Origin: Syntrophomonadaceae bacterium
Lineage (GTDB): Bacteria > Bacillota > Syntrophomonadia > Syntrophomonadales > DTU052
DNA length: 44,518 nucleotides
Direction: 5' to 3'
Assembly (NCBI GenBank): GCA_012729505.1
Contig: JAAYDA010000047.1
Coordinates: 1 to 44,518 of the forward strand
This document shows positions 11,301 through 44,257 of the stretch, piece by piece (position 1 is the first letter of the stretch; each line of letters starts with the position of its first letter). The notes under the pieces are model-generated. The model saw only the letters and a program-made list of their open reading frames with translations. It was not told the DNA's origin and made no database searches. A program made the translations under genes and the position numbers.

Positions 11301-11312
11301 GGAGGCTGACCA

Positions 11313-11789: not shown

Positions 11790-11793
11790 TAAT

Positions 11794-12807: not shown

Positions 12808-12814
12808 AATATAT

Positions 12815-13168
12815 TTGGAAATCTATGTGTGGGCATTTGTGGTGGGGGGTTTAATATGTGTTATCGGTCAGATACTTCTTGATGTAGCCCGACTTACTCC
12901 GGCCCACGTCATGACCATCCTGGTAGTTTCCGGCGCTGTTCTTGGCGGGTTCGGCCTCTATGACCCTTTGATAGATTTTGCCGGCGCCGGCGCTACCGTC
13001 CCCATCACCAGCTTTGGCAATTCCCTGCTGCGGGGAGCGCTGGCCGAAGCTGATCGAAGCGGATTAGTAGGAATTCTGACCGGAATATTTGAGGTAACCA
13101 GTGCCGGTATTTCCGCTGCCATTGTCTTTGGTTTTATGGCGGCTCTGCTTTTCAAGTCCAAAGGTTAA
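12815..13168 (+). CDS. spoVAE: Stage V sporulation protein AE, SpoVAE (AEb type)
   Basis: A 117-residue membrane protein with three or four hydrophobic segments. It carries the motifs [12 protein letters not shown] and [20 protein letters not shown], homologous to those in SpoVAC, since both belong to the same membrane family. Length fits SpoVAEb. The TTG at 12815 lies ten bases after AGGAG, which overlaps the end of spoVAD. It is the last gene of the operon; the stop is only 6 bases from the convergent MntR-like gene and no clear terminator separates them. Confidence 0.92.
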
Positions 13169-26698: not shown

Positions 26699-27661
26699 CT
26701 ATCTGTCCAAACCCTGCAAGACCTCGTACAGCTTGCTCATTTGCTTGATTACTTTCGCAAACGGGATTATGTCGGATTCGTTGAAAACATAAACCCTTTG
26801 CATTTCAGTAAAAGTCGCCTGAAGCTTGGCGTCAGTTTCGAGTGCCTTGAAAAGCAGGAAGTCGGCAAAGGGCTTCTGCGCCAAATCGCAGCCGATTCGA
26901 TTCTGTTCCTCTCGTCGCTTATATTCAAGCATTTTCAGCAGTTCATCTCGTCGGGCAAGGAGTGCGGCGATTCTCTTGGTGTTCATCAACAAAGTCAGGT
27001 CGTATAAATGCTTCGCCATATCAATCAGCATCTGCCGCTGATAGTAAAACTCTGCCGCCAGAATTTTGTCCGCGAAGATGCGCTCCATTTTGATAGTCTT
27101 AACCTCAAAAGGAAAAACGTCAAAGCTATCACGGAGGATACTCCGCTGCTCAGAGGTTGCCTCCGAATACAGCAAAGGTGCGACAACTAAGGATTCAACG
27201 GGTTCGCTCACTGTGAATGATGTTGCTTCTACTTTCACATATCCGAATCGCTGCAGGGTATCGTCGGCATCGATTTTCGTCACCGGCTGATATTCATAAA
27301 CGCTGGTGATGCTCCCTTTGGCATTAATCTCTCTTGTTTTATCGCTTGTCCTGGGCAGAGATGTGTAACCGTTTGCCGCAGTTTCCAATCTCTTTTTCCC
27401 CTGAGATTTTGAGCAGTCCTGTACCTCCACCGTCAGATCTATGTCCTCAGAAAACCTTTTCAGGCTCCCGATGGCTTTGTATAAAGCAGTACCGCCTTTG
27501 AAATACGCAGGCAGTTCCGATTGCCAAGACGCAAGTTCAGAAAGAAGCAGGGTGAGATAGTAATCCTTCTCGATGATATCTTCTCTGATTCCTGTCTTTT
27601 CTGATATGGTCGAAAGCAAAGCCTGAAAAGCGTCTTTGTCTTTATGAAGTCTCATCTCCAT
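26699..27661 (-). CDS. abiEii: AbiEii-type nucleotidyltransferase toxin
   Basis: A protein of about 320 residues with the minimal nucleotidyltransferase fold of AbiEii/AbiGii toxins: FKGGTALYKAIGSLKRFSED with GG at 56-57 and catalytic Asp/Glu in SEDIDL (D73, D75), plus the conserved MERIFADKILAAEFY segment. AbiEii is the toxin of a type IV toxin-antitoxin and phage abortive-infection system; related enzymes add nucleotides to tRNA acceptor ends. It overlaps the antitoxin gene (TGATG), which indicates translational coupling. The ATG at 27661 is used; ATG at 27655 with GAGAGG eight bases upstream is an alternative. The catalytic residues look intact, so the toxin is probably active. Confidence 0.88.
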   Translation of the reverse strand: MEMRLHKDKDAFQALLSTISEKTGIREDIIEKDYYLTLLLSELASWQSELPAYFKGGTALYKAIGSLKRFSEDIDLTVEVQDCSKSQGKKRLETAANGYTSLPRTSDKTREINAKGSITSVYEYQPVTKIDADDTLQRFGYVKVEATSFTVSEPVESLVVAPLLYSEATSEQRSILRDSFDVFPFEVKTIKMERIFADKILAAEFYYQRQMLIDMAKHLYDLTLLMNTKRIAALLARRDELLKMLEYKRREEQNRIGCDLAQKPFADFLLFKALETDAKLQATFTEMQRVYVFNESDIIPFAKVIKQMSKLYEVLQGLDR

Positions 27662-28305
27662 CACCTCTCCACCAGCACATCAACCAGTCCCAGCAAGGTT
27701 TTCTGCGGGTAATGCCGTCTGGCATATGTCAGTGTTTTCACTGTATCTAATTCATTTCTTTCCGCAAAGGCGTGAAGCAATGCTCTTGGATTCTCCGCAT
27801 CAACATGAGCCTCCGGCAAGGCTCTGATGACATCAAGGAACTGCAGATAACGGAAGTTACCCGCATTTACTGTAACAACCGGCTTTCTGACGATGATGAA
27901 TCTGTCACCAACATTCTTACGATAGGCATTGGTGGCTATCTCTCGCTTAGCGGGCACAAGCGTTGTCAGCCCGATTTTATTCATGAGAGAAAATCCTGTT
28001 TCATAGCCGATGATTTCATCGCCGCGACGGGTGAGCAGCTGCGCCTCAATTAATTCTTCGCTCGGTCGAGCCGTGCCGAACACCGTCTGCCTGACACGAT
28101 AATAAACGCCTTTTTGGAAACGCTCAATCAAGCCCTTGTCTGCCAGACGCTTCAAGGCAACGTTGGTAATCGGTTTAGCTTTATGGATAGAGACTTTATA
28201 TTCCTCAGTCATTGCTTCCGCTATGACATCAGTCTGAAAAGCCTGACCATAGGGGATGTCAGCTATTTTGCTTGTGATAAATTCACCGTAGGTGAGGTGC
28301 TCCAT
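27661..28305 (-). CDS. abiEi: AbiEi-type antitoxin / transcriptional autoregulator (DUF6088-like)
   Basis: A 214-residue partner of AbiEii. The N-terminal half contains a winged helix (ITNVALKRLADKGLIERFQKGVYYR), as in AbiEi antitoxins, which repress their own promoter; the C-terminal half (about 100-214) is the antitoxin domain with FSLMNKIGLTT and NAGNFRYLQFLDVIRALPEA. The ATG at 28305 is nine bases after AAAGGAG; a TTG two codons upstream is too close. The promoter region ahead carries an 11-bp inverted repeat flanking the start of transcription. Toxin follows with overlapping codons. Confidence 0.85.
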   Translation of the reverse strand: MEHLTYGEFITSKIADIPYGQAFQTDVIAEAMTEEYKVSIHKAKPITNVALKRLADKGLIERFQKGVYYRVRQTVFGTARPSEELIEAQLLTRRGDEIIGYETGFSLMNKIGLTTLVPAKREIATNAYRKNVGDRFIIVRKPVVTVNAGNFRYLQFLDVIRALPEAHVDAENPRALLHAFAERNELDTVKTLTYARRHYPQKTLLGLVDVLVER

Positions 28306-28323
28306 AGACAAGGACTCCTTTCT

Positions 28324-28685: not shown

Positions 28686-28760
28686 TGGAGCCGATGGCCG
28701 GATTTGAACCGGCGACCTGCGCATTACGAGTGCGCTGCTCTGCCACTGAGCCACATCGGC
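28686..28760 (-). tRNA. tRNA-Thr (anticodon CGT)
   Basis: A full cloverleaf of 75 bases on the minus strand. Acceptor stem GCCGATG/CATCGGC, D arm GCTC-GAGC, anticodon stem GCGCA/TGCGC with loop CTCGTAA giving anticodon CGT (reads ACG), T arm GCCGG-TTCAAAT-CCGGC, and an encoded CCA end. It is followed by a terminator. Its 3' end faces the accessory island, a usual integration side, but I find no second copy of the 3' end in the window. Confidence 0.97.
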
Positions 28761-29185: not shown

Positions 29186-30580
29186 TTAACCGGCTATTAT
29201 GGCAGCAGCCTTTTGCAGAAAATGGTCGGCCTCTTCCAGTGCCTGCTTGATGGCCTCCGGGGCCGTGCCCCCATACAGAGATCTTTTTTCCACACAGGCC
29301 TTCAGCTTTATCTCCCCGTATATATCCTGATCAATCAATGGGGAAAAGCCTCGGAATTCTGCCAGAGTCATCTCCTCTAATGATTTTTCCCGTTCCAGAC
29401 ACCAGGCTACAATCTGACCGACTACACTGTGGGAATCCCGGAAGGCCATGCCTTTTGTCACCAGGTAGTCAGCCAGGTCAGTGGCATTGGTAAAGCCCCG
29501 GGCGGCCCCTCTGTACATCCGATCCACGTTAAATCGGGCGGACCTTAGCATAGGGGTGTAAATTGCCAGGCATTTTTTCAGGGTATCTACCGAATCAAAA
29601 AGGGGTTCCTTATCTTCCTGCATATCCTTGTTGTAGGCCAAAGGCAGTCCTTTCATGGTGGTCAAGAGGGACATGAGATTACCGTAAACCCGACCGGTCT
29701 TGCCTCTAACCAGCTCAGCCATATCAGGATTCTTTTTCTGGGGCATAATGCTGGACCCGGTGCTGAAAGCATCATCTAATTCAATAAATCCGAATTCATC
29801 CGTAGCCCAGAGGATGATCTCTTCAGACAGCCTGCTCAGATGAACCATCAATATGGCTCCAAAGGACATGAATTCCAGGACAAAATCCCGGTCACTGACG
29901 GCATCCAGGCTGTTGCGGGTAAGATGTTCAAAACCTAACTCCTGACGAACCACCTCCCGGTCAATGGGAAAGCCGCTACCGGCCAGAGCACCGGAACCTA
30001 GTGGCATATAGTCCATTCTTTTGACGGCATCCTTCAGTCTTTCCCAGTCCCGTCGCAGCATTTCAAAATAAGCCAGCAGATGATGAGCCAGTGAGATGGG
30101 CTGAGCTTTTTGCAGATGGGTATAGCCGGGCATAACTGTATCCACATGCTCATGGGCCAAATCTCTTAAGGCAGTCATCAATTCAATCAGCAGTCCACTG
30201 ATTATTTCCGCCTCTGAACGCAGGTAGAGACGAATATCCAGGGCCACCTGATCATTGCGGCTGCGGGCAGTATGAAGCTTTTTGCCGGTTTCCCCTATCC
30301 GCTGGATCAAAAAGGTTTCAATATTCATATGGACATCTTCAGCCGTTACCGAAAATTCCAGCTTACCGGCCTCAATGTCTTCCTGGATCGACAAGAGACC
30401 TCTTACGATCTCCTCTGCTTCCACAGGCAGAATTATTCCCTGCAAAGCCAGCATACGGGCGTGGGCTATACTGCCCTGAATGTCTTGGCGATACAGCCTG
30501 GAATCAAAGCTGATGGAAGCATTAAAATCATCTGCCATCTCCGCAGTTTTTTTGGAAAAACGTCCGCCCCACAATTTCAT
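29186..30580 (-). CDS. argH: Argininosuccinate lyase
   Basis: A 464-residue enzyme of the fumarase/aspartase superfamily that splits argininosuccinate into arginine and fumarate, the last step of arginine synthesis. The signature [13 protein letters not shown] with the catalytic Ser loop is intact, as are the N-terminal KLWGGRFSK and HTARSRNDQ segments. Length is normal. The ATG at 30580 follows GGGGGG at a rather long 12 bases. It starts 33 bases after the phosphoglycerate-mutase-family gene, so these two are probably co-transcribed; argG lies 1 kb upstream, beyond a divergent DUF1540 gene. Confidence 0.96.
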
Positions 30581-30613
30581 ACTGCTTTAATACCCCCCGC
30601 CTCAGATTATTAT

Positions 30614-31228
30614 CTAGTTCTCATCTATGAGATGGTCCCGAACGTTCAAATGCTTGAACCGGAACACATCTCCTTCCAGTTCTACTACGCTTATGGCAGC
30701 ATTATTATGGTAATAACGCCGAAAACAGGATAAGTCCTCTCCATGAAGATAACATCCTAATGCCATTAAGGCCCCGCCATGAGTCACCATAACTATTGCT
30801 TCCCCAGTATGACCTTCGACTACCTTATTAAATCCCCCCACTACCCGCCGGGAGAAATCCGTTATCGAGTCCCCTCCAGATATTACCGCTCTTTCGGGAT
30901 CCTCCAGCCAGACTCGATAGGTCTCCTCTCCGAATCTCTCTCTGATCTCTTTCTCATTCAGACCTTCCCATTCCCCAAAATCTATTTCTCCTATTTCGGG
31001 AATGACAATTACCTGCAAATTATGGGACTCGGCAATAATCTCTGCCGTTTCCCGGGCCCGAATCAGATTGCTGGAATAGATAGCTTTAATATCTTCTCTT
31101 CTCAATTTATCGGCCACCTTTCCGGCTTCCCGACGTCCTTGGTCACTCAGGGGAACATCCATCGTTCCCTGATACTTTCCGCTTTCATTCCAGCCGGTGG
31201 TTCCATGTCTTACCAGAAACAGGCGCAT
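30614..31228 (-). CDS. Histidine phosphatase family protein (phosphoglycerate mutase-like)
   Basis: A 204-residue enzyme with the phosphohistidine motif LVRHGTTGWN (H9), the RARETAEI segment, GEIDFGEWEGLN and the second His in VTHGG. It has the CobC/GpmB-type length. Substrate could be alpha-ribazole phosphate, a 3-phosphoglycerate or another phosphate ester. Placement directly before argH makes a housecleaning role possible but nothing in the sequence shows it. The start is ATG at 31228, six bases after GGAGGG; an ATG two codons earlier abuts the Shine-Dalgarno. Confidence 0.87.
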   Translation of the reverse strand: MRLFLVRHGTTGWNESGKYQGTMDVPLSDQGRREAGKVADKLRREDIKAIYSSNLIRARETAEIIAESHNLQVIVIPEIGEIDFGEWEGLNEKEIRERFGEETYRVWLEDPERAVISGGDSITDFSRRVVGGFNKVVEGHTGEAIVMVTHGGALMALGCYLHGEDLSCFRRYYHNNAAISVVELEGDVFRFKHLNVRDHLIDEN

Positions 31229-31270
31229 AGTCATCCCTCCATTCCGCTTGCAGCAAATACTGATCCTGTT

Positions 31271-31299
31271 GTGACAACTTGTTCTTTATTGAATATTAT
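31271..31299 (+). promoter_or_regulatory. Candidate sigma-A promoter of the DUF1540 gene
   Basis: GTGACA (31271-31276), 17 bases, TATTAT (31294-31299), 66 bases before the start codon. Five of six bases match at each box. Moderate support only. Confidence 0.4.
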
Positions 31300-31365
31300 C
31301 AGGCCAACTTATGCAATCTGTTAAAGTAGCAAATATTAAATCTAAATGAAAGGAGGTAGTTGGCA

Positions 31366-31542
31366 GTGAGTCAAACCAGCAGGCTGTCCAGTCCCATTAG
31401 CCGGGTTAAGTGCGTAGTTAATTCATGTTATTTCTATGAACAAGGCGATCAGTGTATGGCGGAAAGAATTGAAGTAAAACCTCCCAATTCTTCCACCAGC
31501 GAAGATACTGACTGTAACACCTTCCAGCCTAAACGAGCTTAA
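31366..31542 (+). CDS. DUF1540 small cysteine protein
   Basis: A 58-residue protein with four cysteines in the DUF1540 pattern: VKCVVNSCYFYEQGDQCMAE, then the ending DTDCNTF. The cysteines probably bind a metal. DUF1540 proteins are common in spore-forming clostridia and are of unknown function. The GTG at 31366 is nine bases after GGAGG; a TTG at 31360 is too close. It is the only plus-strand gene inside the arginine block, between argG and the histidine phosphatase gene. Confidence 0.8.
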   Translation: MSQTSRLSSPISRVKCVVNSCYFYEQGDQCMAERIEVKPPNSSTSEDTDCNTFQPKRA

Positions 31543-31555
31543 ATTCACAGTCTGA

Positions 31556-31585
31556 CCGGGCTGACCTGGAACCAGGCCGGCCCGG
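31556..31585. terminator. GC-rich hairpin between DUF1540 and argG
   Basis: CCGGGC/GCCCGG and the inner CCTGG/CCAGG stack into one hairpin between two convergent genes. The T-runs are weak on both sides, so it is a plausible bidirectional terminator only. Confidence 0.5.
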
Positions 31586-31599
31586 ATTATTTCAGGCGC

Positions 31600-32802
31600 T
31601 TATTTTTTCGCATCCCTTTCCATCATGGCCTGTACCCGCAGAGGGAGGCCAAACAGATTTATAAAGCCTTCCGCATCCTTATGAGAGTAAACCTCATCCT
31701 CGCCAAAAGTGGCCAGGTCGGCACGATACAAGGAATATGGAGATTTTACTCCCACCGGGGTACAACAACCTTTATACAGCTTGACCCGGACTTTGCCGGT
31801 CACATTCTCCTGAGTTTTGTCTACAAAGGCATCCAGGCTCTTTTTTAAGTGTGAAAACCAATTGCCGTCATAAACCAGTTCAGCGTATTCAACTGCTGCC
31901 CGTTCTTTGAAATGAAGAGTCCGCCGGTCCAGGGTCAGGTTTTCCAGTTCACGATGAGCCAGATACAGTATGGTTCCACCCGGACATTCATATACTCCTC
32001 TGGATTTCATGCCCACCAGGCGGTTTTCCACCAGGCTGACAATGCCTACTCCGTTTTCTCCGGCCAACCGGTTCAGTCGTTCGATTAATGCCACCGGCCC
32101 CAGTTCAACTCCATCTACGGCAACGGGCACCCCCTGGACAAAGTCTATTTCTACATAAGCGGGAAGATCCGGAGCCTTTTCCGGTGGAGTAATCATCTGC
32201 AAAATATGATCCTGATACTGATTCCAGGGATCCTCCAGGTCGGCACCCTCATGGCTCATATGCCAGAGATTGCTATCCCGGCTATATATGTTAACCCTGG
32301 TAACCGGCAAAGGAATCCCCCGGTCTTCAGCATACTGTATAGCATCCTCACGGGAACGAATATTCCATTCCCGCCAAGGCGCCACTATTTTAAGATCAGG
32401 GTCCAGGGCCTTTATACTAATCTCAAATCTCACCTGGTCATTGCCTTTGCCTGTAGCTCCGTGAGCTATGGCAACCGCTTTCTCCAGGCGGGCAATTTCC
32501 ACCAGCCTTTTGGCGATGAGGGGGCGGGCAAAGCTGGTTCCCAGCAGGTATTTGCCTTCATATAATGCCCCTGATTTTAGCACCGGCCAGATGAAATCGG
32601 TAACAAATTCTTTTTTTGCGTCTTCTATATATATCTTGGCTGCTCCCGAATTGACAGCTTTTTCTCTTAATGGCGACAGGTCTTCGCCCTGTCCCAGATC
32701 GACACATACCGCCACCACTTCATACCCATAGTTTTCCTTTAACCAGGGAATGATTATGGATGTGTCCAGTCCTCCCGAGTAGGCTAATACAATAGTTCCC
32801 AT
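31600..32802 (-). CDS. argG: Argininosuccinate synthase
   Basis: A 400-residue enzyme joining citrulline and aspartate with ATP. The N-terminal PP-loop AYSGGLDTS (7-15), [13 protein letters not shown] and [14 protein letters not shown] segments are diagnostic. The start is ATG at 32802, nine bases after GGGAG; another in-frame ATG seven codons upstream lacks a ribosome site. It is the last gene of the argC-J-B-D-F cluster as read on the minus strand, 46 bases after the GTPase gene. Confidence 0.96.
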
Positions 32803-32848
32803 TCCTGTAATCTCCCATCCCATACGAATATGCTGCTTCCCCGCAGCT

Positions 32849-34168
32849 CTATAGCACTATCTCCCTGAGCAGCTCTGCCAGGCGCGGTGCTCCAACCTCT
32901 TCCAGATCGTATCTCACCCGCACCGCCGGCTTACTTAAGGTTAACACCCGGCGCAAGTCGATGGGGGTGCCTATTACAACCAATTCCGCCGGCGAGTTGT
33001 TTATGGTTTCAGCCAATTCCGCGATTTGTGTCTGTCCATAGCCCATGGCCGGCAGCAGTCTGGAAAGGTGGTTATATTTCTCAAATGTTTTCTTTATAGA
33101 TCCTACCGCATATGGTCTTGGATCGATTAATTCTGCCGCACCATACTTTTCAGCAGCAATCACTCCGGCCCCATAAGCCATATCTCCATGGGTAAGGGTA
33201 GGCCCATCCTCGACTACCAGAACTTTTTTGCCTTTCATCAGTTCAGGCTCATCAATGCTTATTGGTGAGTTGGCCATAATGATTTCCGCTCCGGGATTGT
33301 TAAGCTTTATGGCCTCCTTGACGGCTTCCACTGAAGCAGGATCGGCGGAATCGATTTTGTTGATAATCGCCACATCAGCCATTCGCAAATTGGTCTCACC
33401 CGGATGATAAAGAGTCTCATGCCCGGGACGATGGGGATCAACCACTACAAGGTGAAGATCGGTGTTATAAAAGGGCAGGTCATTGTTGCCTCCATCCCAA
33501 AGAATAACATCTGCTTCCTGTTCCGCCTGACGCAGGATAGCCTCATAATCCACTCCCGCATATACGATCAGGCCATTATCGATATGGGGCTCGTATTCTT
33601 CTCTTTCTTCAATGGTACACTTATGCAAATCAAGATCCTCATAATCAGCAAAGCGCTGGACGATCTGCTCTTCCAGCTTGCCGTATGGCATAGGATGGCG
33701 GATAACAGCCACTTCTTTACCCATTTCTTTCAAGAGCATACCTATAAAGCGAGTAGTCTGGCTTTTTCCGCTGCCGGTTCTGACTGCAGTTACTGCCACT
33801 ACTTTTTTATTGGACTTTATCATGGTTCTATTGGGACCCATCAGCCGGAAATCGGCACCACAGGCATTTACCAAAGATGCCGCATGCATAACATGCTGGT
33901 GAGAAACGTCACTATAGGCAAAAACCACGGTATCCACACCATATTTCCTGATCAGCTCCGGCATATCCGCCTCGGCGAAAATGGGGATTCCCTCGGGATA
34001 ATCTGGCCCAGCCAGCTCCGGCGGATAACGCCGCCCTTCAATATCCGGTATTTGGGCAGCTGTAAATGCCACCACTTCATATTCGGAGTTGCCTCGGAAG
34101 AAAGTGTTAAAATTGTGAAAATCCCGGCCTGCCGCACCCATAATTAGTATTCGCTCTTTGTCCACCAT
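32849..34168 (-). CDS. Cyclic 2,3-diphosphoglycerate synthetase-like P-loop NTPase
   Basis: A 439-residue protein. Residues 1-130 look like a Rossmann-type NAD- or CoA-binding domain ([28 protein letters not shown]). From about 130 there is a P-loop NTPase domain with [37 protein letters not shown] and INKIDSADP. This is the domain arrangement of archaeal cyclic-2,3-diphosphoglycerate synthetase homologues (COG2403), which occur in bacteria without proven function. The second ATG (34168) is five bases after AAAAGGAG. It sits between the GNAT gene and argG with a 25-base gap to the former, so it is a member of the arginine operon. A role in arginine or carbamoyl metabolism is inference from position only. 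Confidence 0.75.
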
Positions 34169-34193
34169 CATCGCTCCTTTTCAAATTCCTGCA

Positions 34194-34652
34194 TTATTTT
34201 TCGGGGATGTATGTCATTACTTGAATGTCTTCACGTTTGTTCCACCCATTGTGTTCATAGAATTTTATAGCATTAGTGTTTTCATTCAGGACAAACAGGT
34301 GAATCTTCTTGGCGCCCAGGCTTTTCAGCTCCCGGCACACTTTTTCCGCCAGAAGTCTCCCCCAGCCCCGTCCTTGTCTTTCCGGATGAACCGCCAGATG
34401 ATATATGTACCCCCGGCGTCCGTCGAAACCGCCCAATACGGTGCCTGCTATCTGTCGGCCCTCTTTTATCACCAGACAACTGGACGGGTTCTTTTCCAGG
34501 AACAGTCGGAGAGCTTCGATGTCATCCCCACTGCTTGATTCTATCCCCGGAACAGCTCTCCAGAAATCCAGCAAAGCCTCAATGCAGCTTGGTAATATCC
34601 TTTGAATTTGTGGATTGTTGTTATCTGTATCTTCGCTCATGTGCGCTGTCAT
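34194..34652 (-). CDS. GNAT family N-acetyltransferase
   Basis: A 152-residue acetyltransferase with the acetyl-CoA loop VHPERQGRGWGRLLAEKV (motif Q/RxxGxG/A as RQGRGWG) and the C-terminal NTNAIKFYEHNGW. The ATG at 34652 overlaps the argF stop (ATGA), so it is translationally coupled and surely co-transcribed. Because argJ already supplies acetylglutamate by recycling, this protein could be an auxiliary N-acetylglutamate synthase, or a RimI-like or amine acetylase. The sequence alone does not decide. The N-terminal 12 residues are polar and dispensable-looking; a second ATG is at 34640. Confidence 0.8.
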   Translation of the reverse strand: MTAHMSEDTDNNNPQIQRILPSCIEALLDFWRAVPGIESSSGDDIEALRLFLEKNPSSCLVIKEGRQIAGTVLGGFDGRRGYIYHLAVHPERQGRGWGRLLAEKVCRELKSLGAKKIHLFVLNENTNAIKFYEHNGWNKREDIQVMTYIPEK

Positions 34653-35596
34653 TGCATAACCACAGCCATTATGGCTTTCTGAGCATGGAGGCGGTTTTCT
34701 GCTTCGTCGAATACCACCGATTGGGGGCCATCAATTACTTCGTCAGTTATTTCCCGTCCTCTCTTGGCCGGCAGGCAATGCATGACAATAGCCTCAGGTT
34801 TGGCCAGGGCCAGGTTTTTCTGATTGATTTGATATGAAGCGAACCGTTTTTCCTTCTCCGCCGATTCCTTTTCCTGTCCCATGCTGGACCAAACATCAGT
34901 ATAGATTACATCCGCATCATGCAATGCTTCTTCAGGGTCAGTGACCACCCAAAGCCGCGCCCCTGTTTCCTGTGCATCCTCCTTAGCCAAAGCCATGATC
35001 TCCGGATCAGGCTCAAATCCTGATGGGCAGGCTATCACCACATTCATCCCGGTTTTGGCCCCTCCAAACAACAAGGAATGAGCCATATTATTTCCATCCC
35101 CTACAAAAGCAAGCTTTATTCCCTCCAGGGTTTTCTTATGCTCTAATATGGTCATCATATCACCCATTACCTGACAGGGATGCAGCAGGTCGGTAAGACC
35201 GTTTATGACTGGAATAGTGGCGTAATGGGCCAATTCCAGAACCTCATCATGGGAAAAGGTACGGATCATAATCCCATTGAGAAAGCGTGACAGGGTAAGG
35301 GCCGTATCCTTGACACTCTCACCTCTGCCAATCTGCAAATCATTGGGGCTCAGGAACAAGGGATAGCCTCCTAATTGATACATTCCCACTTCAAAAGAAA
35401 CCCGGGTACGGGTTGACGGCTTTTGAAAAATCATGCCCATGGTCTTACCCTCCAGAACCGGATAAGGCTGGCCGGATTTTTGAATTGCCTTTATTTTTGA
35501 TGCCAAGTCCAGCAAATATGCGATCTCTTCCTTTGTATAATCGTGAATCGAAATAAAATCCCTTCCCTTAAAAATTGGGTCCAAATCAAATGTCAT
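34649..35596 (-). CDS. argF: Ornithine carbamoyltransferase
   Basis: A 315-residue anabolic OTCase that makes citrulline from ornithine and carbamoyl phosphate. The carbamoyl-phosphate motif STRTRVSFEVGM is at 61-72; LLHPCQVMGD and the ornithine loop HCLPAKRGREI are intact. The ATG at 35596 is eight bases after GAGGGAG. It starts 36 bases after argD and overlaps the GNAT gene by 4 bases. Confidence 0.96.
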   Translation of the reverse strand: MTFDLDPIFKGRDFISIHDYTKEEIAYLLDLASKIKAIQKSGQPYPVLEGKTMGMIFQKPSTRTRVSFEVGMYQLGGYPLFLSPNDLQIGRGESVKDTALTLSRFLNGIMIRTFSHDEVLELAHYATIPVINGLTDLLHPCQVMGDMMTILEHKKTLEGIKLAFVGDGNNMAHSLLFGGAKTGMNVVIACPSGFEPDPEIMALAKEDAQETGARLWVVTDPEEALHDADVIYTDVWSSMGQEKESAEKEKRFASYQINQKNLALAKPEAIVMHCLPAKRGREITDEVIDGPQSVVFDEAENRLHAQKAIMAVVMQ

Positions 35597-35632
35597 AAAA
35601 CTCGCTCCCTCTTATCTATCTTGCCTTTGGGA

Positions 35633-36823
35633 TCATTTCCAATCCTGCAAAGACTGCTCCAGCCTGTTCAAAGCCTCATCCACTTCCGACTCAGTAATGT
35701 TGAGAGGCGGTACGAAACGAAGGACCCGGGGGCCCGCTGAAAGGAGAAGAAGGCCATTCCCCCGGCAAATATCCACCAGGTCCTTAACCTCCGCTGAAAA
35801 CTCTATGCCCAGCAGAAGCCCACGCCCTCTCAGACCTGATGCCCGGTTATTCTTCAATACTATCTGCTCCAGCTTCTCCTGCATATAGTCAGAAATATTT
35901 TTGACCTGAGCCAGAAAATCCGGTTCCGATATGATCTCCACTACTCGATGGGCTACGGCACAACCCAGAGGATTTCCCCCAAAGGTTGAGGCATGATCAC
36001 CCGGGCCAAAACCTGAGGCTGCTTCATCTGTTGCTAATAAAGCCCCGATGGGAAAGCCCCCTCCCAGCCCTTTGGCCAAGGTTACAATGTCAGGGGTGAT
36101 GCCATAATATTGGAATGCCATCATATCACCAGTACGCCCCACTCCACACTGGACTTCATCCAGCATTAACAAGGCGCCGGTTTCCTGACAGATTCTTTTC
36201 AGACCGGTCATAAACTCAACAGTGGCAGGGTTTACTCCCCCTTCCCCCTGAATCGGCTCTACCAGAATCCCACAAGTCTTATCTGTAAGGAGTGCCTTTA
36301 CTGATTCCAGATTATTAAACTCGGCAAATTCGATACCGGGCAGCAGCGGTTCAAAGCCCTGCTGATACTTGGTCTGACCGGTAGCAGCTAAAGCACCTGT
36401 AGTCCGGCCATGAAATGAATTTCTGCAGGCAATTATCTGATAGCGATTCTGTCCCTGGCGGTAAAAATATTTACGGGCCAGCTTTATTGCCCCTTCATTG
36501 GCCTCTGCCCCACTATTGGCGAAAAATGCTTTATCCATCCCGGTAGATTGGCAAAGCTTAGCGGCTAATTCAACCTGCGGCTCTATCCAATAAAGATTGG
36601 AGCAGTGCCACAGCTTCTCACTCTGGTCCCGCAGCACTGCCGTCAATTCAGGGTGAGCGTGGCCAAGGGCACACACCGCAATTCCACCCACCAAATCCAG
36701 ATATTCTTTTCCGTCAGCATCCCAGACCCGGCTTCCCTCACCTTTAACCAGAGCTATTGGGATTCGGCCATAGGTATTCATTATGTACTGCCGGCCTTTA
36801 TCCATTATGGACTTATTACTCAA
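35633..36823 (-). CDS. argD: Acetylornithine aminotransferase
   Basis: A 396-residue class III PLP aminotransferase that converts acetylglutamate semialdehyde to acetylornithine. K251 in TLAKGLGGGFPIG is the PLP lysine; LDEVQCGVGRTG holds the Asp (222) that pairs with the ring nitrogen, and FANSGAEANEGAIK binds the phosphate. The TTG at 36823 is seven bases after AGGAGGGG; the frame is open 31 codons further into argB but without homology. It follows argB by 13 bases. Confidence 0.95.
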   Translation of the reverse strand: MSNKSIMDKGRQYIMNTYGRIPIALVKGEGSRVWDADGKEYLDLVGGIAVCALGHAHPELTAVLRDQSEKLWHCSNLYWIEPQVELAAKLCQSTGMDKAFFANSGAEANEGAIKLARKYFYRQGQNRYQIIACRNSFHGRTTGALAATGQTKYQQGFEPLLPGIEFAEFNNLESVKALLTDKTCGILVEPIQGEGGVNPATVEFMTGLKRICQETGALLMLDEVQCGVGRTGDMMAFQYYGITPDIVTLAKGLGGGFPIGALLATDEAASGFGPGDHASTFGGNPLGCAVAHRVVEIISEPDFLAQVKNISDYMQEKLEQIVLKNNRASGLRGRGLLLGIEFSAEVKDLVDICRGNGLLLLSAGPRVLRFVPPLNITESEVDEALNRLEQSLQDWK

Positions 36824-36836
36824 TTCGGCTCCCCTC

Positions 36837-37700
36837 CTATCCCCGCACCACCATGGTGCCACTGCCTTCATTAGTAAGCAGCTCAAGTAAAATCGAATGC
36901 GGAACCCGACCATCAATAATATGGGTTCGGGATACCCCTTTTTTCAGAGCGTTTGTGCAGCATTCAACCTTGGGAATCATGCCCCCGTCAATAATGCCGC
37001 ACTCAATCAAATCTGGTATTTCAGAAACAAGAACCTGGGAAAACAAGGTGTCAGAAGCCCTGGAGTCAGCCAGAATCCCCGGAACGTCTGTGAGCAGAAT
37101 AAGCTTTTCAGCTCCGACAGCTACTGCAATCTCGCTGGCAACATGGTCGGCATTAATATTATAGGTTGTGCCATCCTGACCCATTCCAACGGGAGCAATC
37201 ACCGGGATATACCCGTTCTCCACCAAAGGATTCAGGACACAAGGGTTAATATTAACCACCTCACCCACATATCCCAGATCTTCACTGCCCCTCATCTGTA
37301 CGGCTTCGATCAGGTTTCCGTCTTTTCCGCACAAGCCTATGGCTTTGCCCCCACACTCATTGATTCCGGCCACAATTTGTTTATTGATCTTGCCCACCAG
37401 AACCATTTCCACTACTTCCATTATTTCAGGATCGGTAACCCTCATTCCCTTGACGAATCGGGTTTTTATTCCCAGCCTGTGCAGCATCTGAGTAATCTCC
37501 GGGCCACCCCCATGAACCACCAGGGGATTCATGCCTACATATTTCAACAACACCAGATCCTGCATCACCGCTTGCTGCAGGACACTGCTGCCCATTGCCG
37601 ATCCCCCGTATTTAACTACCACTGTCTTGCCGGAAAACTCCTTGATGTACGGCAAGACTTCGGTGATTATTTTCGCCTTTTCCATGGATGAGATCATCAT
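36837..37700 (-). CDS. argB: Acetylglutamate kinase
   Basis: A 287-residue amino-acid kinase that phosphorylates N-acetylglutamate. Motifs are VVKYGGSAMG, NPLVVHGGGPEI, and YNINADHVASEIA with the ATP-site region LILLTDVPGI. It has the N-terminal helix extension seen in arginine-inhibited kinases (EKAKIITEVLPYIKEF), so feedback inhibition by arginine is plausible. The ATG at 37700 (or 37697) follows AGGGGAACT. It lies 40 bases after argJ. Confidence 0.95.
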   Translation of the reverse strand: MMISSMEKAKIITEVLPYIKEFSGKTVVVKYGGSAMGSSVLQQAVMQDLVLLKYVGMNPLVVHGGGPEITQMLHRLGIKTRFVKGMRVTDPEIMEVVEMVLVGKINKQIVAGINECGGKAIGLCGKDGNLIEAVQMRGSEDLGYVGEVVNINPCVLNPLVENGYIPVIAPVGMGQDGTTYNINADHVASEIAVAVGAEKLILLTDVPGILADSRASDTLFSQVLVSEIPDLIECGIIDGGMIPKVECCTNALKKGVSRTHIIDGRVPHSILLELLTNEGSGTMVVRG

Positions 37701-37740
37701 AGTTCCCCTAACACCTCAATTTCCGAGATTATAAAAAGCT

Positions 37741-38931
37741 TCATGTCCGATAAGCAGCGTTAATTTTAACATAATCATAGGTCAAATCACATCCCCAGGC
37801 CACTGCCCGGCCTTCCCCCTGGTTAAGGTTTATCTGCACCTTGACTTCCTCTTCACTTAAATCCTGCTTCGCCATCTCTTCATCAAAATCCACGCCCGCA
37901 CCCTTTCTGGCTACCTGCTGGCGACCCAAGCAAATATCTACAATATCCGGATCAATATCTATTCCGGAATAACCTACCGCACAAATAATCCTTCCCCAAT
38001 TAGCATCCTTGCCAAATACTGCGGCCTTAAAAAGACTGGAGGACACTACGGTGCGGGCCACCTGGCGGGCATCCTGGTCCTGGCGGGCCCCGCTGACCTC
38101 AACCTCAATCAGACAGGTGGCGCCTTCCCCGTCCCGGGCAATGGATTTGGCCAGACTGATATTTATACGATCCAGGGCTTCCCTGAAAATCTGATACTCC
38201 GGAGAATTGACAGCGGTTATTTCTACATTACCGGCCTGACAGTTAGCCAAAATTAAAGCCATGTCATTAGTTGAAGTGTCACCATCAACACTGATCATGT
38301 TATAAGAGATATTGGCCGAATCCTGCAAAGCCTGCTGCAAACACTCCTTGCTGATAACCGCATCGGTGGTAATAAAAATCAAGGTTGTGGCCATATCAGG
38401 ATGAATCATCCCCGAGCCTTTGGCCATCCCTCCCATCCTTACGGTTTTTCCGCCGATAGTAAACTCAGCAATAGCAGTTTTCGGAAAGGTATCGGTGGTC
38501 ATAATGGCTGCCGCCGCATTTTCTCCGCCCTCCTTGCTCAGAGAAGCACAGGCCTTATTAATGCCGCTTTCCACCTTGTCCATGGGAAGCTCGACTCCTA
38601 TTACACCTGTGGAAGCCACTAAAACCTCCTCAGGCTTGATTCCCAGGCACTCCGCCGCCAGAGTCATCATCTGCCGGTTGTCTTTTTCTCCCTGCAAACC
38701 GGTACAAGCATTGGCATTACCGCTGTTAATGACTATAGCCCGTGTTTTCCGGCCTATAAGCTCCCGGTTAGCTTTTACACAGGCAGCCTGAACCCGGTTG
38801 GTGGTAAATACCCCTGCCGTTTGACAAGGTACTTCCGAAAAGATTACCGCCAGATCCAGGGTCTGTTTTTTTATGTTGGCTTCGACCCCCTGGGCCAGGA
38901 ACCCCAGGGGAAAAGTTATTCCATTCTTCAC
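37741..38931 (-). CDS. argJ: Bifunctional glutamate N-acetyltransferase / ornithine acetyltransferase
   Basis: A 396-residue ArgJ, which moves acetyl from acetylornithine to glutamate. It is made as a precursor that cleaves itself before a threonine; the conserved KGSGMIHPDMATTLIF region is present with Thr182 as the new N-terminal nucleophile. The GTG at 38931 is eight bases after GGGAG. It is the second gene of the operon, 28 bases after argC. Presence of argJ means the recycling pathway, so no argE is needed. Confidence 0.95.
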   Translation of the reverse strand: MKNGITFPLGFLAQGVEANIKKQTLDLAVIFSEVPCQTAGVFTTNRVQAACVKANRELIGRKTRAIVINSGNANACTGLQGEKDNRQMMTLAAECLGIKPEEVLVASTGVIGVELPMDKVESGINKACASLSKEGGENAAAAIMTTDTFPKTAIAEFTIGGKTVRMGGMAKGSGMIHPDMATTLIFITTDAVISKECLQQALQDSANISYNMISVDGDTSTNDMALILANCQAGNVEITAVNSPEYQIFREALDRINISLAKSIARDGEGATCLIEVEVSGARQDQDARQVARTVVSSSLFKAAVFGKDANWGRIICAVGYSGIDIDPDIVDICLGRQQVARKGAGVDFDEEMAKQDLSEEEVKVQINLNQGEGRAVAWGCDLTYDYVKINAAYRT

Positions 38932-38959
38932 TTATTACACTCCCTTAATATACTGTGGC

Positions 38960-39997
38960 TTAGGGATAAAGGCCCGGGCTTTGCAAAGCCATTCCCTCAT
39001 CCAACCCTAACATCAGATTGAAGTTCTGAACCGCCTGACCAGCCGCCCCCTTGGTGAGATTATCGATAGCGCTGATTATGATCACCCGGCCATTGTCCGG
39101 ATTAACATAGATTCCGATATGCGCATAATTGCTGCCATATACCCATTTGGTTTCCGGATAGACTCCATGAGGCAGGACTTTTACAAATCTCTCCCCCTGA
39201 TAAAAGTCTTCCATAGCCTCTCTTATTTCATGAGGCTTGACGCCCTTCCTCAGCTCCCCATAGGCAGTTGTAAGAATTCCCCGATTCATGGGCACCAGAT
39301 GGGGAGTAAAGGTTATGTTCACCTGTTTTCCCGCTGCCACACTAAGCTCCTGCTCAATCTCAGGAGCATGGCGATGAGTTCCCACCCCGTAAGCCTTAAA
39401 GTTCTCATTTACATGACAAAAATGAGTGGTCTGGCTGAGACCTTTGCCCGCACCCGATACCCCCGATTTGGAATCCACTATTATTCCGCTCGTGGAGATC
39501 AAACCGTTTTGCAATAAAGGAACCAGGCTCAAAGAAGCTCCGGTGGGATAACATCCGGGATTAGCCACTATCCTGGTATTTCTGATCTGCTCCCGATACA
39601 GCTCAGGCAGGCCATAAACCGCCTCTTGCAGAAGGTCAGGCCGTTCATGGTCTAAAAGATAATGCTGTTTATAAATATTAACATCTCGCAAGCGGAAATC
39701 CGCACCAAAATCTACGCATCTGACTCCGCCTTCTATCAGCTCTGCAACTACAGGAACGGACAGGCCATGGGGCAGAGCCAGGAATGCCACATCACCCTGT
39801 TTTTTCAGTTGGCTCGGATCAGTTTCCTGCAAGGTTATATCTGCCATTCCGGTCAGACTCGGATATACCTCAGAAAACCTTCGCCCCACATTGTCGGCAC
39901 TGGTAACAGACACTATCTGAACCTTCTCATGACCGTATAGAATCCTTACCAGATCAGCCGCAGCATAACCGTCTCCTATAATCACGACTTTTATCAC
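38960..39997 (-). CDS. argC: N-acetyl-gamma-glutamyl-phosphate reductase
   Basis: A 345-residue enzyme with NADP-binding N-terminus VVIIGDGYAAADLVRIL and the catalytic cysteine in ANPGCYPTGA; HRHAPEIEQEL and the C-terminal NLTKGAAGQAVQN segment are typical. The usual GATGYTGAEL at the N-terminus is replaced by GDGYAAADL, a mild departure. The GTG at 39997 is seven bases after AGGGGC; the frame is open 19 codons further but into the promoter. First gene of the arginine operon. Confidence 0.94.
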   Translation of the reverse strand: MIKVVIIGDGYAAADLVRILYGHEKVQIVSVTSADNVGRRFSEVYPSLTGMADITLQETDPSQLKKQGDVAFLALPHGLSVPVVAELIEGGVRCVDFGADFRLRDVNIYKQHYLLDHERPDLLQEAVYGLPELYREQIRNTRIVANPGCYPTGASLSLVPLLQNGLISTSGIIVDSKSGVSGAGKGLSQTTHFCHVNENFKAYGVGTHRHAPEIEQELSVAAGKQVNITFTPHLVPMNRGILTTAYGELRKGVKPHEIREAMEDFYQGERFVKVLPHGVYPETKWVYGSNYAHIGIYVNPDNGRVIIISAIDNLTKGAAGQAVQNFNLMLGLDEGMALQSPGLYP

Positions 39998-40019
39998 TTG
40001 TAACGCCCCTCTCACTACG

Positions 40020-40054
40020 TTAATAATTATACATTCCAGCGTATATTGATGCAA
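40020..40054 (-). promoter_or_regulatory. Arginine operon promoter with overlapping ARG-box-like palindrome
   Basis: On the minus strand TTGCAT (40054-40049), exactly 17 bases, TATAAT (40031-40026), 29 bases before the argC start codon. TGTATAATTATTAA (40033-40020) covers the -10 and fits the ArgR/AhrC box TGAATWWWWATTCA in 8 of its 10 fixed positions. Binding there would block the polymerase, which suits repression by arginine. No argR gene is in the window. Confidence 0.7.
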
Positions 40055-40257: not shown

Positions 40258-41037
40258 CTACCGGTCCTTAAACACCGGCTTTCTCTTTTCGATGAAGGCC
40301 TTCATGCCTTCCTTTTGATCTTCAGTGGCAAAGCATAATGCCAGGAGATCCACCTCGATCAGCTGACCTCTGGCCACATCCAGCTCCAGGCCTTCATTAA
40401 TGGCCTGTTTGGCAAAGCGAACAGCAACCGGTGCGTTGGAAATGATTTTCCGGGCCATTTTCTTGGCCTCTTCCATCAGCTCATCAGGAGCTACAACCCG
40501 GTTAACCAGCCCAATTTGATTAGCCTTCTGGGCATCGATCATATCACCGGTAAAGATCAATTCCTTGGCCATGCCTGCCCCTACCAGCTTGGGCAGCCTT
40601 TGAGTCCCGGCAAATCCGGGCACAATTCCCAGCCCAACTTCAGGCTGACCAAACTTGGCCTTTTCCGATGCAATTCGAATATCACAGGCCATGGCCAGCT
40701 CACAGCCGCCCCCCAGGGCAAATCCATTTATAGCTGCAATGACGGGCTTAGGGAGCTTTTCAATTTTCAGGAAAACCCCTTGTCCCAGAGTGCCGAATGC
40801 TTTGCCTTGTAAACCGTTGTTATTCTGCATGGCTACAATATCTGCCCCGGCCACAAAAGCGTTACCGTTCCCTGTTATAATTACTGCCTTTACTTCATCA
40901 TCCTTGGCAATCAGATCAACTGCCTGGTCCAAATCCACCAAAGTTTCTTCATTCAAAGCGTTGAGAGCCTTAGGCCGGTTCATAGTTATTATGCCAATAG
41001 CCCCGTCCTTTTCCAACAACAAATTATTAAATTCCAT
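40258..41037 (-). CDS. Enoyl-CoA hydratase / crotonase family protein (third copy)
   Basis: A 259-residue crotonase. Catalytic E113 in LGGGCELAMACDIRIAS and E133 in FGQPEVGLGIVPG; oxyanion loop FVAGADIVAM. It is the closest of the three copies to rat mitochondrial hydratase and to clostridial 3-hydroxybutyryl-CoA dehydratase (Crt). The ATG at 41037 is eight bases after GAGGAGG. It is a single-gene unit between the arginine operon and the radical SAM gene, with its own terminator. Substrate chain length not determinable. Confidence 0.9.
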   Translation of the reverse strand: MEFNNLLLEKDGAIGIITMNRPKALNALNEETLVDLDQAVDLIAKDDEVKAVIITGNGNAFVAGADIVAMQNNNGLQGKAFGTLGQGVFLKIEKLPKPVIAAINGFALGGGCELAMACDIRIASEKAKFGQPEVGLGIVPGFAGTQRLPKLVGAGMAKELIFTGDMIDAQKANQIGLVNRVVAPDELMEEAKKMARKIISNAPVAVRFAKQAINEGLELDVARGQLIEVDLLALCFATEDQKEGMKAFIEKRKPVFKDR

Positions 41038-41132: not shown

Positions 41133-42134
41133 TCATATAGCTTGGCAGGTGAAATATGCATCTTTCCCGCATACCCTGCAGCGAGTCCCTGCCAGGTTCT
41201 CGATCTTAACCATATAACCCTCCCGGGCCACCAGAATGGCCTGGCAGTTGGAACAACAGGAATTATTGGCGAAACCCGCCATATTCCCCACATAGACGTT
41301 TTGCAAATGCCTGTTGGCTATCTGCCAGGCCATCTCCATAGTATTGCGAGGAGTCGGTGGAAGCTTCAGCTTGTAGGCCGGGTGATAGGCGGATAGATGC
41401 AATGGGATAGAAGCATTGATTCCGGCTATCCACCGGCACATTGCTTCAATCTCTTCCCTGCTGTCATTGAGGCCGGGAATCAGCAGGCAAGTCAATTCCA
41501 CATGGGTGTGACGGACGCAATACTCGATAGTTTCTTTTACCGGCGACAGTCGTCCCCGGCATTGGGAACGATAATATTGCTCCGCGAATGACTTGAGATC
41601 AATATTCATAGCATCAACACCGGAGATAATCGCCTGAAGCGGCTCCGGGTTAATGTAGCCGTTTGTCACCAACACATTCTCAAGTCCCACATTTTTCATC
41701 ATAGGCAAGACATCTGCCAGATATTCATACCACATAAGGGGTTCGGAATAGGTATACGCCACCCCTACAGAATCATGCTTCTTTGCCTCTTGGGCCAGAT
41801 TAAGGAGCTCCTCAGGAGCAACAAATCTGGTAGGCGGATTCTCCTGAGCAATCTGATAGTTCTGGCAGAAAGAGCAGGAAAGACTGCAGCCCACCGTGCC
41901 CACCGACAGAATACTGTGGCCCGGATAAAAGTGGTAAAGAGGCTTTTTCTCAATGGGATCCAACCCCATTGAAGATACCTCCCCGTAATTGGTGGCAAAC
42001 AGCTTCCCACCGCGATTAATTCGCACCCGGCACACTCCGCTTTTTCCCTCTTGGATGCGGCAATTATGGGGACAGAGCCCACACCGAACTGGTCCGTTTT
42101 CTAACTGCTTATATGTTTTTACCGATACTTCCAT
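41133..42134 (-). CDS. amrS: AmmeMemoRadiSam system radical SAM enzyme
   Basis: A 333-residue radical SAM protein related to pyruvate-formate-lyase activase. The iron-sulfur cluster motif CSLSCSFC (C83, C87, C90) is preceded by an N-terminal CGLCPHNC and CRVR set of cysteines, and the C-terminus has SCCSNC and CRVCG. The N-terminal and C-terminal cysteine groups could bind additional metal. This family occurs with AMMECR1 and Memo genes. Its substrate is unknown. The ATG at 42134 follows the stop of the upstream gene without a gap and uses AGGCGG inside it, so the two are tightly coupled. Confidence 0.9.
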   Translation of the reverse strand: MEVSVKTYKQLENGPVRCGLCPHNCRIQEGKSGVCRVRINRGGKLFATNYGEVSSMGLDPIEKKPLYHFYPGHSILSVGTVGCSLSCSFCQNYQIAQENPPTRFVAPEELLNLAQEAKKHDSVGVAYTYSEPLMWYEYLADVLPMMKNVGLENVLVTNGYINPEPLQAIISGVDAMNIDLKSFAEQYYRSQCRGRLSPVKETIEYCVRHTHVELTCLLIPGLNDSREEIEAMCRWIAGINASIPLHLSAYHPAYKLKLPPTPRNTMEMAWQIANRHLQNVYVGNMAGFANNSCCSNCQAILVAREGYMVKIENLAGTRCRVCGKDAYFTCQAI

Positions 42135-43532
42135 CTATTTAAACCGCCTGACCTCAAATCTTTGCAGCCTTATTTTTTCTCCCGGCCTTATGCCCGCTTT
42201 TTGCCGGGCTATTTCCACCTGCTGTTGAGGGGTATCGATACCTTCCAGATCGGGCAGCAAGACTCCCCGCCGACTGCCGCTGCTCACTATGACTCCATAT
42301 TTCAGGGGATCTAATTGAGTAATTTCGGCAATTGGCTCAGGAGGACTCAATACATCTACCGAATATACTAATTCATCTAATTCCGCCGGCTCCACCGGTA
42401 AAAAACGCGGATCCTCCGTTCCGGCATCAATGGCATTTTCCCTGATTTCCAGGGCCAGATGAGGACGAACCGGTTCCAGAGTACCGATACACCCCCGCAG
42501 CTGCCCATCTTTTTTCAGAGAGACAAAAGCGGCCGCAGCATTTTTCAGCTCTTCAGGAAGGGGCTCCGGAATCTTTGCCCTCTTACCAGTATTCACATAA
42601 GTCTCCAGACTCTTTCTGGCCCATTGCACCAGAGGGGACTCCTGTTGCCGCAACCTGGACTGCCGCTCTGTTTTACCCTCTATAAGCTGCTCAAAAATAC
42701 CGGCCTCGGTTTTTTCACCCGGCTCAATCCCGGCCGTAAGATAGCCTACTCCAAATGGACCTTCATAGGAAAGGACTTCAGGCATAATCTTCCGCCCATC
42801 CAAGGCCCCCATCATAATGACCAGGGACCGAAAGCCGCATTCTCCTGCATTTTCCCGCAGTTCATCAGGAAGCTCCAATAATCTTATTATCTCTCCACCG
42901 GCAATACAGTCCTTAACCTCCCGGTCAAAACGTGGTCCATCCGGATGATATGAATATGGTCCCTCCTCCTTTAAGCGGTGAGACATATCACTGGAGGCTA
43001 TTACTGCCACCCGCCGCCCCAATTCCTCCGCCACTTGGGCAATTGCCATTCCAAAGGAATACAGCAGTTCAACGGAGAGAAAGCCAAAGCTTATGGCCAG
43101 GATCGGGATTTCCATTAAGCCCGCAGCCTCTAAATAATGAAGAGGAACTAATACGCCATGATCTAAAGAGGGATCTAACCCCTGCTCGTCCCTGCCACGG
43201 TCAACGGGAACCACAATAACATTGCGGTCCTCAGCTTTTCCTCGCAGCCTTTCCAGATATTCCAGATCATTAGGATGGCTGTATTTCAGCTGCCGATGTC
43301 CAAATCTGCCGAAATCACCCTCCAGCCTGGAGTCAGCCAGGGCGGAAACAGCATCACTATATACATTTCCGTGGGGAGTAATGAATACCAGCAGATCGGG
43401 TGAATAGTCGGCCACCCGGGAAGCCAGCCGGGTCATGCCCTCCACCGTAGCTCTTACCTCTTTGATCTGAGCTCCTCCAATGGCGGGGATTATCATGGGG
43501 GGGTGGGGGAAAACCGCTCCGTACACAATCAT
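42135..43532 (-). CDS. Memo-like (AmmeMemoRadiSam B) domain fused to AMMECR1 (AmmeMemoRadiSam A)
   Basis: A 465-residue fusion. Residues 1-270 are a class III extradiol-dioxygenase / Memo-like domain ([33 protein letters not shown] with metal-type histidines). Residues 285-465 are an AMMECR1 domain with its hallmark LRGCIG at 345-350, VSLKKDGQ before it and DEFVY-like [11 protein letters not shown]. In many prokaryotes these two are separate genes next to a radical SAM enzyme; here they are one protein followed without a gap by that enzyme. Function of the system is unknown. The conserved Cys in LRGCIG suggests a modified or catalytic residue. The ATG at 43532 overlaps the cwlD stop by 4 bases. 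Confidence 0.87.
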
Positions 43533-44257
43533 TCAGCAGGTACCTCCTTTGCAGAATACTTCACGATTCCTGATAAAATTCCATGGGCGATCTTGGTCTG
43601 ATAAATATCATCCCCTAGAAGCATCTCTTCATCAGGATTGGAAATGAAACCTACTTCTATTATAAGGGTTGGCATAGTGGTTTTCTCCATAATAAAGAAA
43701 ACCCCCTCCTTAGCCTTGCGATTATTGTTCCCCAAAATACGCACCAGCTCAGCCTGGATGCATTTAGCCAGCCGCTCTCCCTCCGGGCTTTTTGAATAAT
43801 AGAAGGTCTGGGCCCCGTGCCAGCGTGGAGAGGGATCAGCATTAGTATGAATAGACAGGTACATATCTGCCTCAATCTCTTCTGCCATAGCCACCCTTCG
43901 CGCCAGGTCAATACGTTTTTTCTCCAGCAGACTATCCCCTTCGGTGCCGCTAAGATCGGTATCAGTTTCCCTGGTAAGCACTACCATGGCCCCGGCCTGA
44001 CTCAGGGTTCTGGCCAGTTTTTTGGATATGGCCAAGGTAATATCCTTTTCCTTGACCCCCGTCTTTCGGCCTATGGCGCCGGAATCTACTCCCCCGTGGC
44101 CGGGATCAACCACAATTTTCATTCCCGCAATTCCATACGATAAAACCGGTGTCTCCGATTCAATCCCGGTCATGATCCGTAATGCCCCTAAGGCCACCAT
44201 AGCCGCCAGAACCAGCCCCAACCGCAGTCTTTTCCCGGATATGGTCCAAAACCACAA
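43529..44257 (-). CDS. cwlD: N-acetylmuramoyl-L-alanine amidase CwlD
   Basis: A 242-residue amidase_3 protein with an N-terminal membrane anchor (about 11-28). Catalytic zinc residues are in [12 protein letters not shown] (H54), TLAIS, SIHTNAD and IIEVGFISN. CwlD makes the muramic-delta-lactam of the spore cortex. Length equals B. subtilis CwlD (about 237). The TTG at 44257 is six bases after GGGAGGGG; the frame is open 50 codons upstream, but with no homology. It overlaps the Memo-AMMECR1 gene by 4 bases, so the three form one operon. The upstream neighbour is outside the window. Confidence 0.92.

Follow-up and report, generated by a model that had tools for sequence, protein, structure and literature searches.

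A LigB-type AmmeMemoRadiSam module that adjoins cwlD and occurs independently of sporulation genes

The window, by which we mean the whole stretch of DNA analysed, is the entire contig JAAYDA010000047.1 (44,518 nt), and all coordinates are window positions. Its minus strand carries a gene for a LigB-type/AMMECR1 fusion protein between cwlD and the gene for a radical SAM enzyme. In the order of transcription, the features are:

43529..44257, minus strand: cwlD, N-acetylmuramoyl-L-alanine amidase (Amidase_3, 174 bits)
42135..43532, minus strand: LigB-type/AMMECR1 fusion of 465 amino acids, a single chain comprising AmmeMemoRadiSam components B and A (PF02900, PF01871, TIGR04335)
42741..43517, minus strand: LigB/Memo-superfamily domain of the fusion, residues 6-264 (Pfam and conserved residues)
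42141..42629, minus strand: AMMECR1 domain of the fusion, residues 302-464, with the LRGCIG motif containing C348 (Pfam and conserved residues)
41133..42134, minus strand: AmmeMemoRadiSam radical SAM enzyme (amrS), 333 amino acids (TIGR04337)
40258..41037, minus strand: enoyl-CoA hydratase, downstream of amrS on the same strand and probably outside the module
38960..40054, minus strand: argC, first gene of a downstream arginine biosynthesis run

As read from the sequence, the TGA stop codon of cwlD and the ATG start codon of the fusion share the letters ATGA, an overlap of 4 bp, and AAAGGAGGT lies just upstream. The ATG of amrS begins at the next base after the TAG of the fusion. The initial annotation had proposed a fusion in one chain, a radical SAM gene starting at its stop codon and an overlapping cwlD upstream, all of which are confirmed; the span it assigned, 42135-44257, comprises the fusion and cwlD, and amrS lies just outside. 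The cwlD start that it implied, TTG at 44257, comes with a good Shine-Dalgarno sequence (AGGGAGGGG) and likely fits better than ATG 44407, with which the longest ORF begins. CwlD scores 218.1 bits against TIGR02883 (cut-off 221.55), and it is the positional orthologue of genes in relatives that do pass this model, with same-position orthologues reaching 238.8 bits. Terminator-like patterns between 38500 and 44518 show no excess, at 7 compared with 6.3 expected by chance. The arrangement itself is not a product of chance, because within the order the fusion is found in 56 of 61 relatives and cwlD is directly upstream of it in 47 genomes, at distances of 3-392 bp (median 74).

Other parts of the window carry genes of separate interest. 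On the plus strand, at 10440-13168, a YetF-like gene (DUF421 and DUF1657) is followed by SpoVAD and flanking small genes; these resemble a second spoVA-type operon, a kind linked elsewhere to spore heat resistance. On the minus strand, at 26699-28311, the gene for an AbiEii-type nucleotidyltransferase and a 216-amino-acid gene directly upstream of it (27661-28311) are probably a type IV toxin-antitoxin pair, and a tRNA-Thr (CGT) lies near them at 28686-28760.

The fusion and amrS were followed through a survey of 249 genomes of the phylum, which replaced a single-sequence scan of genome contigs that had returned 8 loci only, and through a sample of 81 loci, mostly one per family, divided into a first set of 50 and a hold-out of 31. 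Their pairing is near-obligatory. The fusion occurs in 190 genomes and amrS in 184, all of them among the 190 and with the components either fused or split; amrS without the fusion was found in 0 of the 249 genomes. The two genes adjoin in 76 of the 81 sampled loci. In split forms (for example, genomes G098 and G159), separate adjacent LigB-type and AMMECR1 genes precede the radical SAM gene, and the order LigB-type, AMMECR1, radical SAM is thus common to fused and split versions; genome G151 has the reverse order, with the radical SAM gene before the fusion. This pattern of occurrence and order bears out the earlier proposal that both halves of the fusion act together with the radical SAM enzyme, and gene order and fusion suggest that all three may do so on one substrate.

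A strong radical SAM match was not found in a few genomes that contain the fusion (G080, G216, G236 and G278), which suggests that the fusion may act without amrS in them. Two of these, G236 and G278, encode two full-length fusions each, one of which is 33-35% identical to that of the window, and a search of both genomes with TIGR04337 at E 1e-60 gave no match. A stand-alone AMMECR1 protein, 56% identical to the window's domain, is encoded in an Armatimonadetes MAG (locus L038, 9995-10513) after der and plsY-like genes; neither LigB/Memo nor radical SAM genes were seen beside it.

The initial annotation described the protein as a Memo-AMMECR1 fusion. Its AMMECR1 part and the fusion itself stand, as the C-terminal half scores 160.7 bits against PF01871 (cut-off 25) and 142.4 against TIGR04335 (cut-off 99), but the first domain is LigB-type by Pfam and not Memo. 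The N-terminal half reaches 126.9 bits for PF02900 (LigB; cut-off 26.3) and fails the MEMO family model PF01875, with 21 bits against a cut-off of 27. TIGR04336 gives 30.1 on the window fusion (cut-off 26), and 25.1 or no match on its relatives. When 21 diverse relatives were scanned, LigB matched all of them and Memo matched 16, more weakly than LigB. An AlphaFold2 model of the fusion (mean pLDDT 95.8, pTM 0.89) has as its top solved matches TK2203 (5hee), AMMECR1 proteins (1vaj, 1zq7) and aminophenol dioxygenases, whereas MEMO1 is a lower-ranked match (TM 0.52-0.59 by target).

Conserved residues link the LigB-type half to two known families. Among 65 proteins, H10, H54, H125, D182, H185, C232 and C348 are invariant, the last within the invariant LRGCIG motif, and position 231 is Glu in 62 proteins and Gln in 3. 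G261-V262-G263-Y264 is invariant as well. The residues of the 2-His-1-Glu site of class III extradiol dioxygenases are therefore present, as H10, H54 and E231. E231 aligns with E251 of an aminophenol dioxygenase (3VSG_B), an iron ligand equivalent to C244 of human MEMO1, whose iron ligands are H49, H81 and C244 (PMC11081632). In a MAFFT alignment, the adjacent C232-G233 falls on the Cys-Gly of amrB proteins of the true-Memo type. Candidates for the dioxygenase Glu and for the Memo Cys are thus side by side in one domain, and either E231 or C232 may serve as a metal ligand, the role of C232 in a His-His-Cys site being putative. A MAFFT column that equates H54 with the His of the Memo PHAG motif was not used, since by motif H10 would be expected to match MEMO1 H49, and H54 to match H81.

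With 2-aminophenol 1,6-dioxygenase and other LigB class III extradiol dioxygenases (3VSI, 7TXY, 1BOU), the domain shares the fold, the two His motifs and the aligned Glu. Unlike these enzymes, it has an invariant Cys beside the Glu, an AMMECR1 domain, a radical SAM partner and an apparently anaerobic host. It has the superfamily fold of human MEMO1 (7KQ8) as well, its Cys-Gly matches the Memo CG, and D182 and H185 resemble D189 and H192; however, the structural match is weak, and the window protein retains the dioxygenase Glu and LigB-like PHPP and PHG His motifs. Genes of the host, namely one for an ODP/flavodoxin-type protein and others for beta-oxidation, fit an anaerobe, and O2-dependent ring cleavage is therefore unlikely here. 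Independence from O2 does not extend to the whole family, as the obligate aerobe Sulfolobus acidocaldarius carries a TIGR04337 match.

A link between Memo, AMMECR1 and a family of radical SAM enzymes has reportedly been drawn before, and the system is already catalogued in kind as AmmeMemoRadiSam (TIGR04335/04336/04337; amrA, amrB, amrS). The window agrees with it in having AMMECR1 and radical SAM components above their cut-offs, adjacent and co-occurring genes, and a third component of the Memo superfamily; it differs in that this component scores as LigB (PF02900), not Memo (PF01875), and is fused to AMMECR1. The LigB-type version is standard in this phylum. Among plasmid records of PLSDB, amrB-amrS pairs occur in Ideonella dechloratans (NZ_CP088082) and Segatella hominis (NZ_CP137560), and both amrB proteins are Memo-AMMECR1 fusions, scoring 154 and 194 bits for PF01875. 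They share with the window the domain order, the radical SAM partner, Cys-Gly and LRGCIG, although a genuine Memo domain makes up their N-terminal half and their hosts are Gram-negative non-spore-formers. The plasmid amrS proteins are 39-43% identical to the window's, including the four N-terminal cysteines, and the fusions are 26-28% identical. The radical SAM and AMMECR1 components are thus constant, and a LigB-type or a Memo domain, two members of one superfamily, occupies the third slot. Such a swap supports a common job for the two domains, and that a Memo-clade domain takes the same slot elsewhere adds to the case for joint action.

The radical SAM enzyme scores 328.7 bits against TIGR04337 (cut-off 220). 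Its invariant cysteines are C18/C21/C25/C35 near the N terminus and C83/C87/C90 of the radical SAM motif, and CxxC pairs are present near the C terminus (C294/C297/C319/C322). Among solved structures, pyruvate formate-lyase activating enzyme (3c8f; TM 0.80 by target length, E 4e-14) gives the best match to its AlphaFold2 model (mean pLDDT 96.7); this enzyme has the same CxxxCxxC motif, but not the extra N-terminal four-Cys motif or the C-terminal CxxC pairs.

This structural match bears on the main rival to joint action on one substrate, namely that amrS, like the lyase activating enzyme, modifies the fusion at C348 or at a glycine and so produces the working enzyme. The near one-to-one co-occurrence of the two genes and the invariance of C348 and G261-V262-G263-Y264 speak for this rival, and models of glycyl-radical activases do match the amrS sequence. 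All of these matches are nevertheless far below cut-off (for PFLA, 60.6 bits against 231.75), the folds of NifB, TYW1, viperin, RlmN and QueE match the amrS model as well, and in a few genomes the fusion was detected and the radical SAM gene was not. GVGY probably resembles a glycyl-radical motif for structural reasons, since a GxG is found at the same place in aminophenol dioxygenases, which need no activase; a glycyl radical at this site was set aside for that reason. We regard activase-type modification as possible but rather unlikely.

The linkage to cwlD had been taken as a possible hint of a spore-related role. In such a role, the fusion and amrS would work alongside CwlD while the cortex matures or during germination. 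Linkage to cwlD is indeed kept in relatives, and not only in the 47 genomes of the order: cwlD is within ~6 kb of the fusion in 22 of 50 loci of the first set and 15 of 31 hold-out loci beyond it (37 of 81 in all). The usual setting is rpoA-rplQ-ecf-truA-rplM-rpsI-cwlD-...-fusion-radical SAM-argC. With spoIVA as the marker of spore genes, however, the fusion is present in 167 of 215 genomes that have the marker and in 23 of 34 that do not (p=0.20). It is the proximity of cwlD that differs, at 36 of 68 spoIVA-positive loci compared with 1 of 13 spoIVA-negative loci (p=0.002), and 12 of the 13 sampled spoIVA-negative loci keep the module where cwlD is missing. Genomes G081, G134, G262 and G282, for example, have rpsI followed by the fusion, and cwlD does not intervene. 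Conversely, among 17 spore formers that lack the fusion and have a cwlD match, 11 have cwlD less than 5 kb from rpsI on the same strand.

The wider distribution points in the same direction. TIGR04337 is present in Thermotoga maritima, Methanocaldococcus jannaschii, Methanosarcina acetivorans and the Sulfolobus species mentioned above, and was not found in a Bacillus subtilis control, and the module type extends to the non-spore-formers Segatella (Bacteroidota) and Ideonella (Betaproteobacteria). Because genomes without spore genes retain the module and lose cwlD as its neighbour, a spore function is not supported, and this reading, which is largely refuted, appears to us very improbable. Inheritance of gene order accounts best for the linkage, with cwlD and the module lying in an old block rplM-rpsI-cwlD-...-fusion-amrS-arg and cwlD being a neighbour by descent. 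Translational coupling in such an order need not mean shared function, although a weak functional link to cwlD may persist, as conserved synteny alone does not disprove one. Proximity to rpsI was also tried as a means of separating position from function; the value obtained for cwlD (p=0.012) is biased, because the fetched stretches end ~6 kb upstream, and was discarded.

A second recurrent neighbourhood involves arginine and ornithine. Such genes are within ~6 kb of the module in 24 of 50 loci of the first set and 9 of 31 hold-out loci, the latter fetched after the idea had been written down, for a total of 33 of 81. In the window, a nearly complete run of argC, argJ, argB, argD, argF, argG and argH (29186-40054, minus strand) is downstream of the module; a 440-amino-acid gene between argF and argG (32849-34171) has no NCBIfam match at E 1e-20. 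Elsewhere, argC-J-B-D lie downstream, or the gene directly upstream encodes either an arginase (TIGR01229, 322.8 bits) or an ornithine racemase-like protein, the latter accompanied in some loci by the ornithine-fermentation genes OraE/OrtB. In loci L118, L129 and L130, and also L174, the module directly follows the racemase-like gene in what appears to be a D-ornithine aminomutase (OraE/OrtB) operon.

These neighbours could be partners, with the module serving guanidino, polyamine or ornithine-fermentation chemistry. The linkage recurs in different contexts and in both locus sets, and it is independent of proximity to rpsI (10 of 23 compared with 22 of 58 loci, p=0.8, where a hand tally counted 23 and not 24 linked loci in the first set, locus L092 being left out). 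On the other hand, block inheritance may explain this linkage as it does that of cwlD, the loci are phylogenetically non-independent, amino-acid genes are common, and no such neighbour is annotated in the plasmid loci outside Bacillota (Ideonella, Segatella). We therefore treat the neighbourhood as a new lead and not as a finding, and judge a partnership of this kind improbable. The more specific proposal, that a LigB-clade domain with the Glu-Cys pair displaced Memo across the phylum and that the module functions in metabolism derived from arginine or ornithine (guanidino/polyamine), strikes us as slightly less probable still.

The explanation that we favour, by a modest degree, is that the LigB form of the AmmeMemoRadiSam module is a three-site housekeeping set that acts on one substrate or passes an intermediate between its sites, with cwlD adjoining it by descent. 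By comparison with homologues, H10, H54 and the E231-C232 pair of the LigB-type half would form a site for a divalent metal ion, probably Fe(II). AmrS would supply 5'-deoxyadenosyl-radical chemistry, and AMMECR1, through the region of C348, might bind or process the same molecule. As for this substrate, a small molecule or a nucleotide is more plausible than a component of the spore.

Both MEMO1 and AMMECR1 are conserved proteins of humans, and the primary molecular function of MEMO1 is unknown (PMC11081632). The bacterial module unites both families with a radical SAM enzyme, and our results remove the idea of a role in sporulation. They also identify residues that the LigB-type and Memo-type versions share, of which Cys-Gly and LRGCIG are the most telling. 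The arginine/ornithine lead can be examined in culturable bacteria and, if displacement of Memo and this metabolic reading were both true, they would provide the first metabolic address for the MEMO1 and AMMECR1 families.
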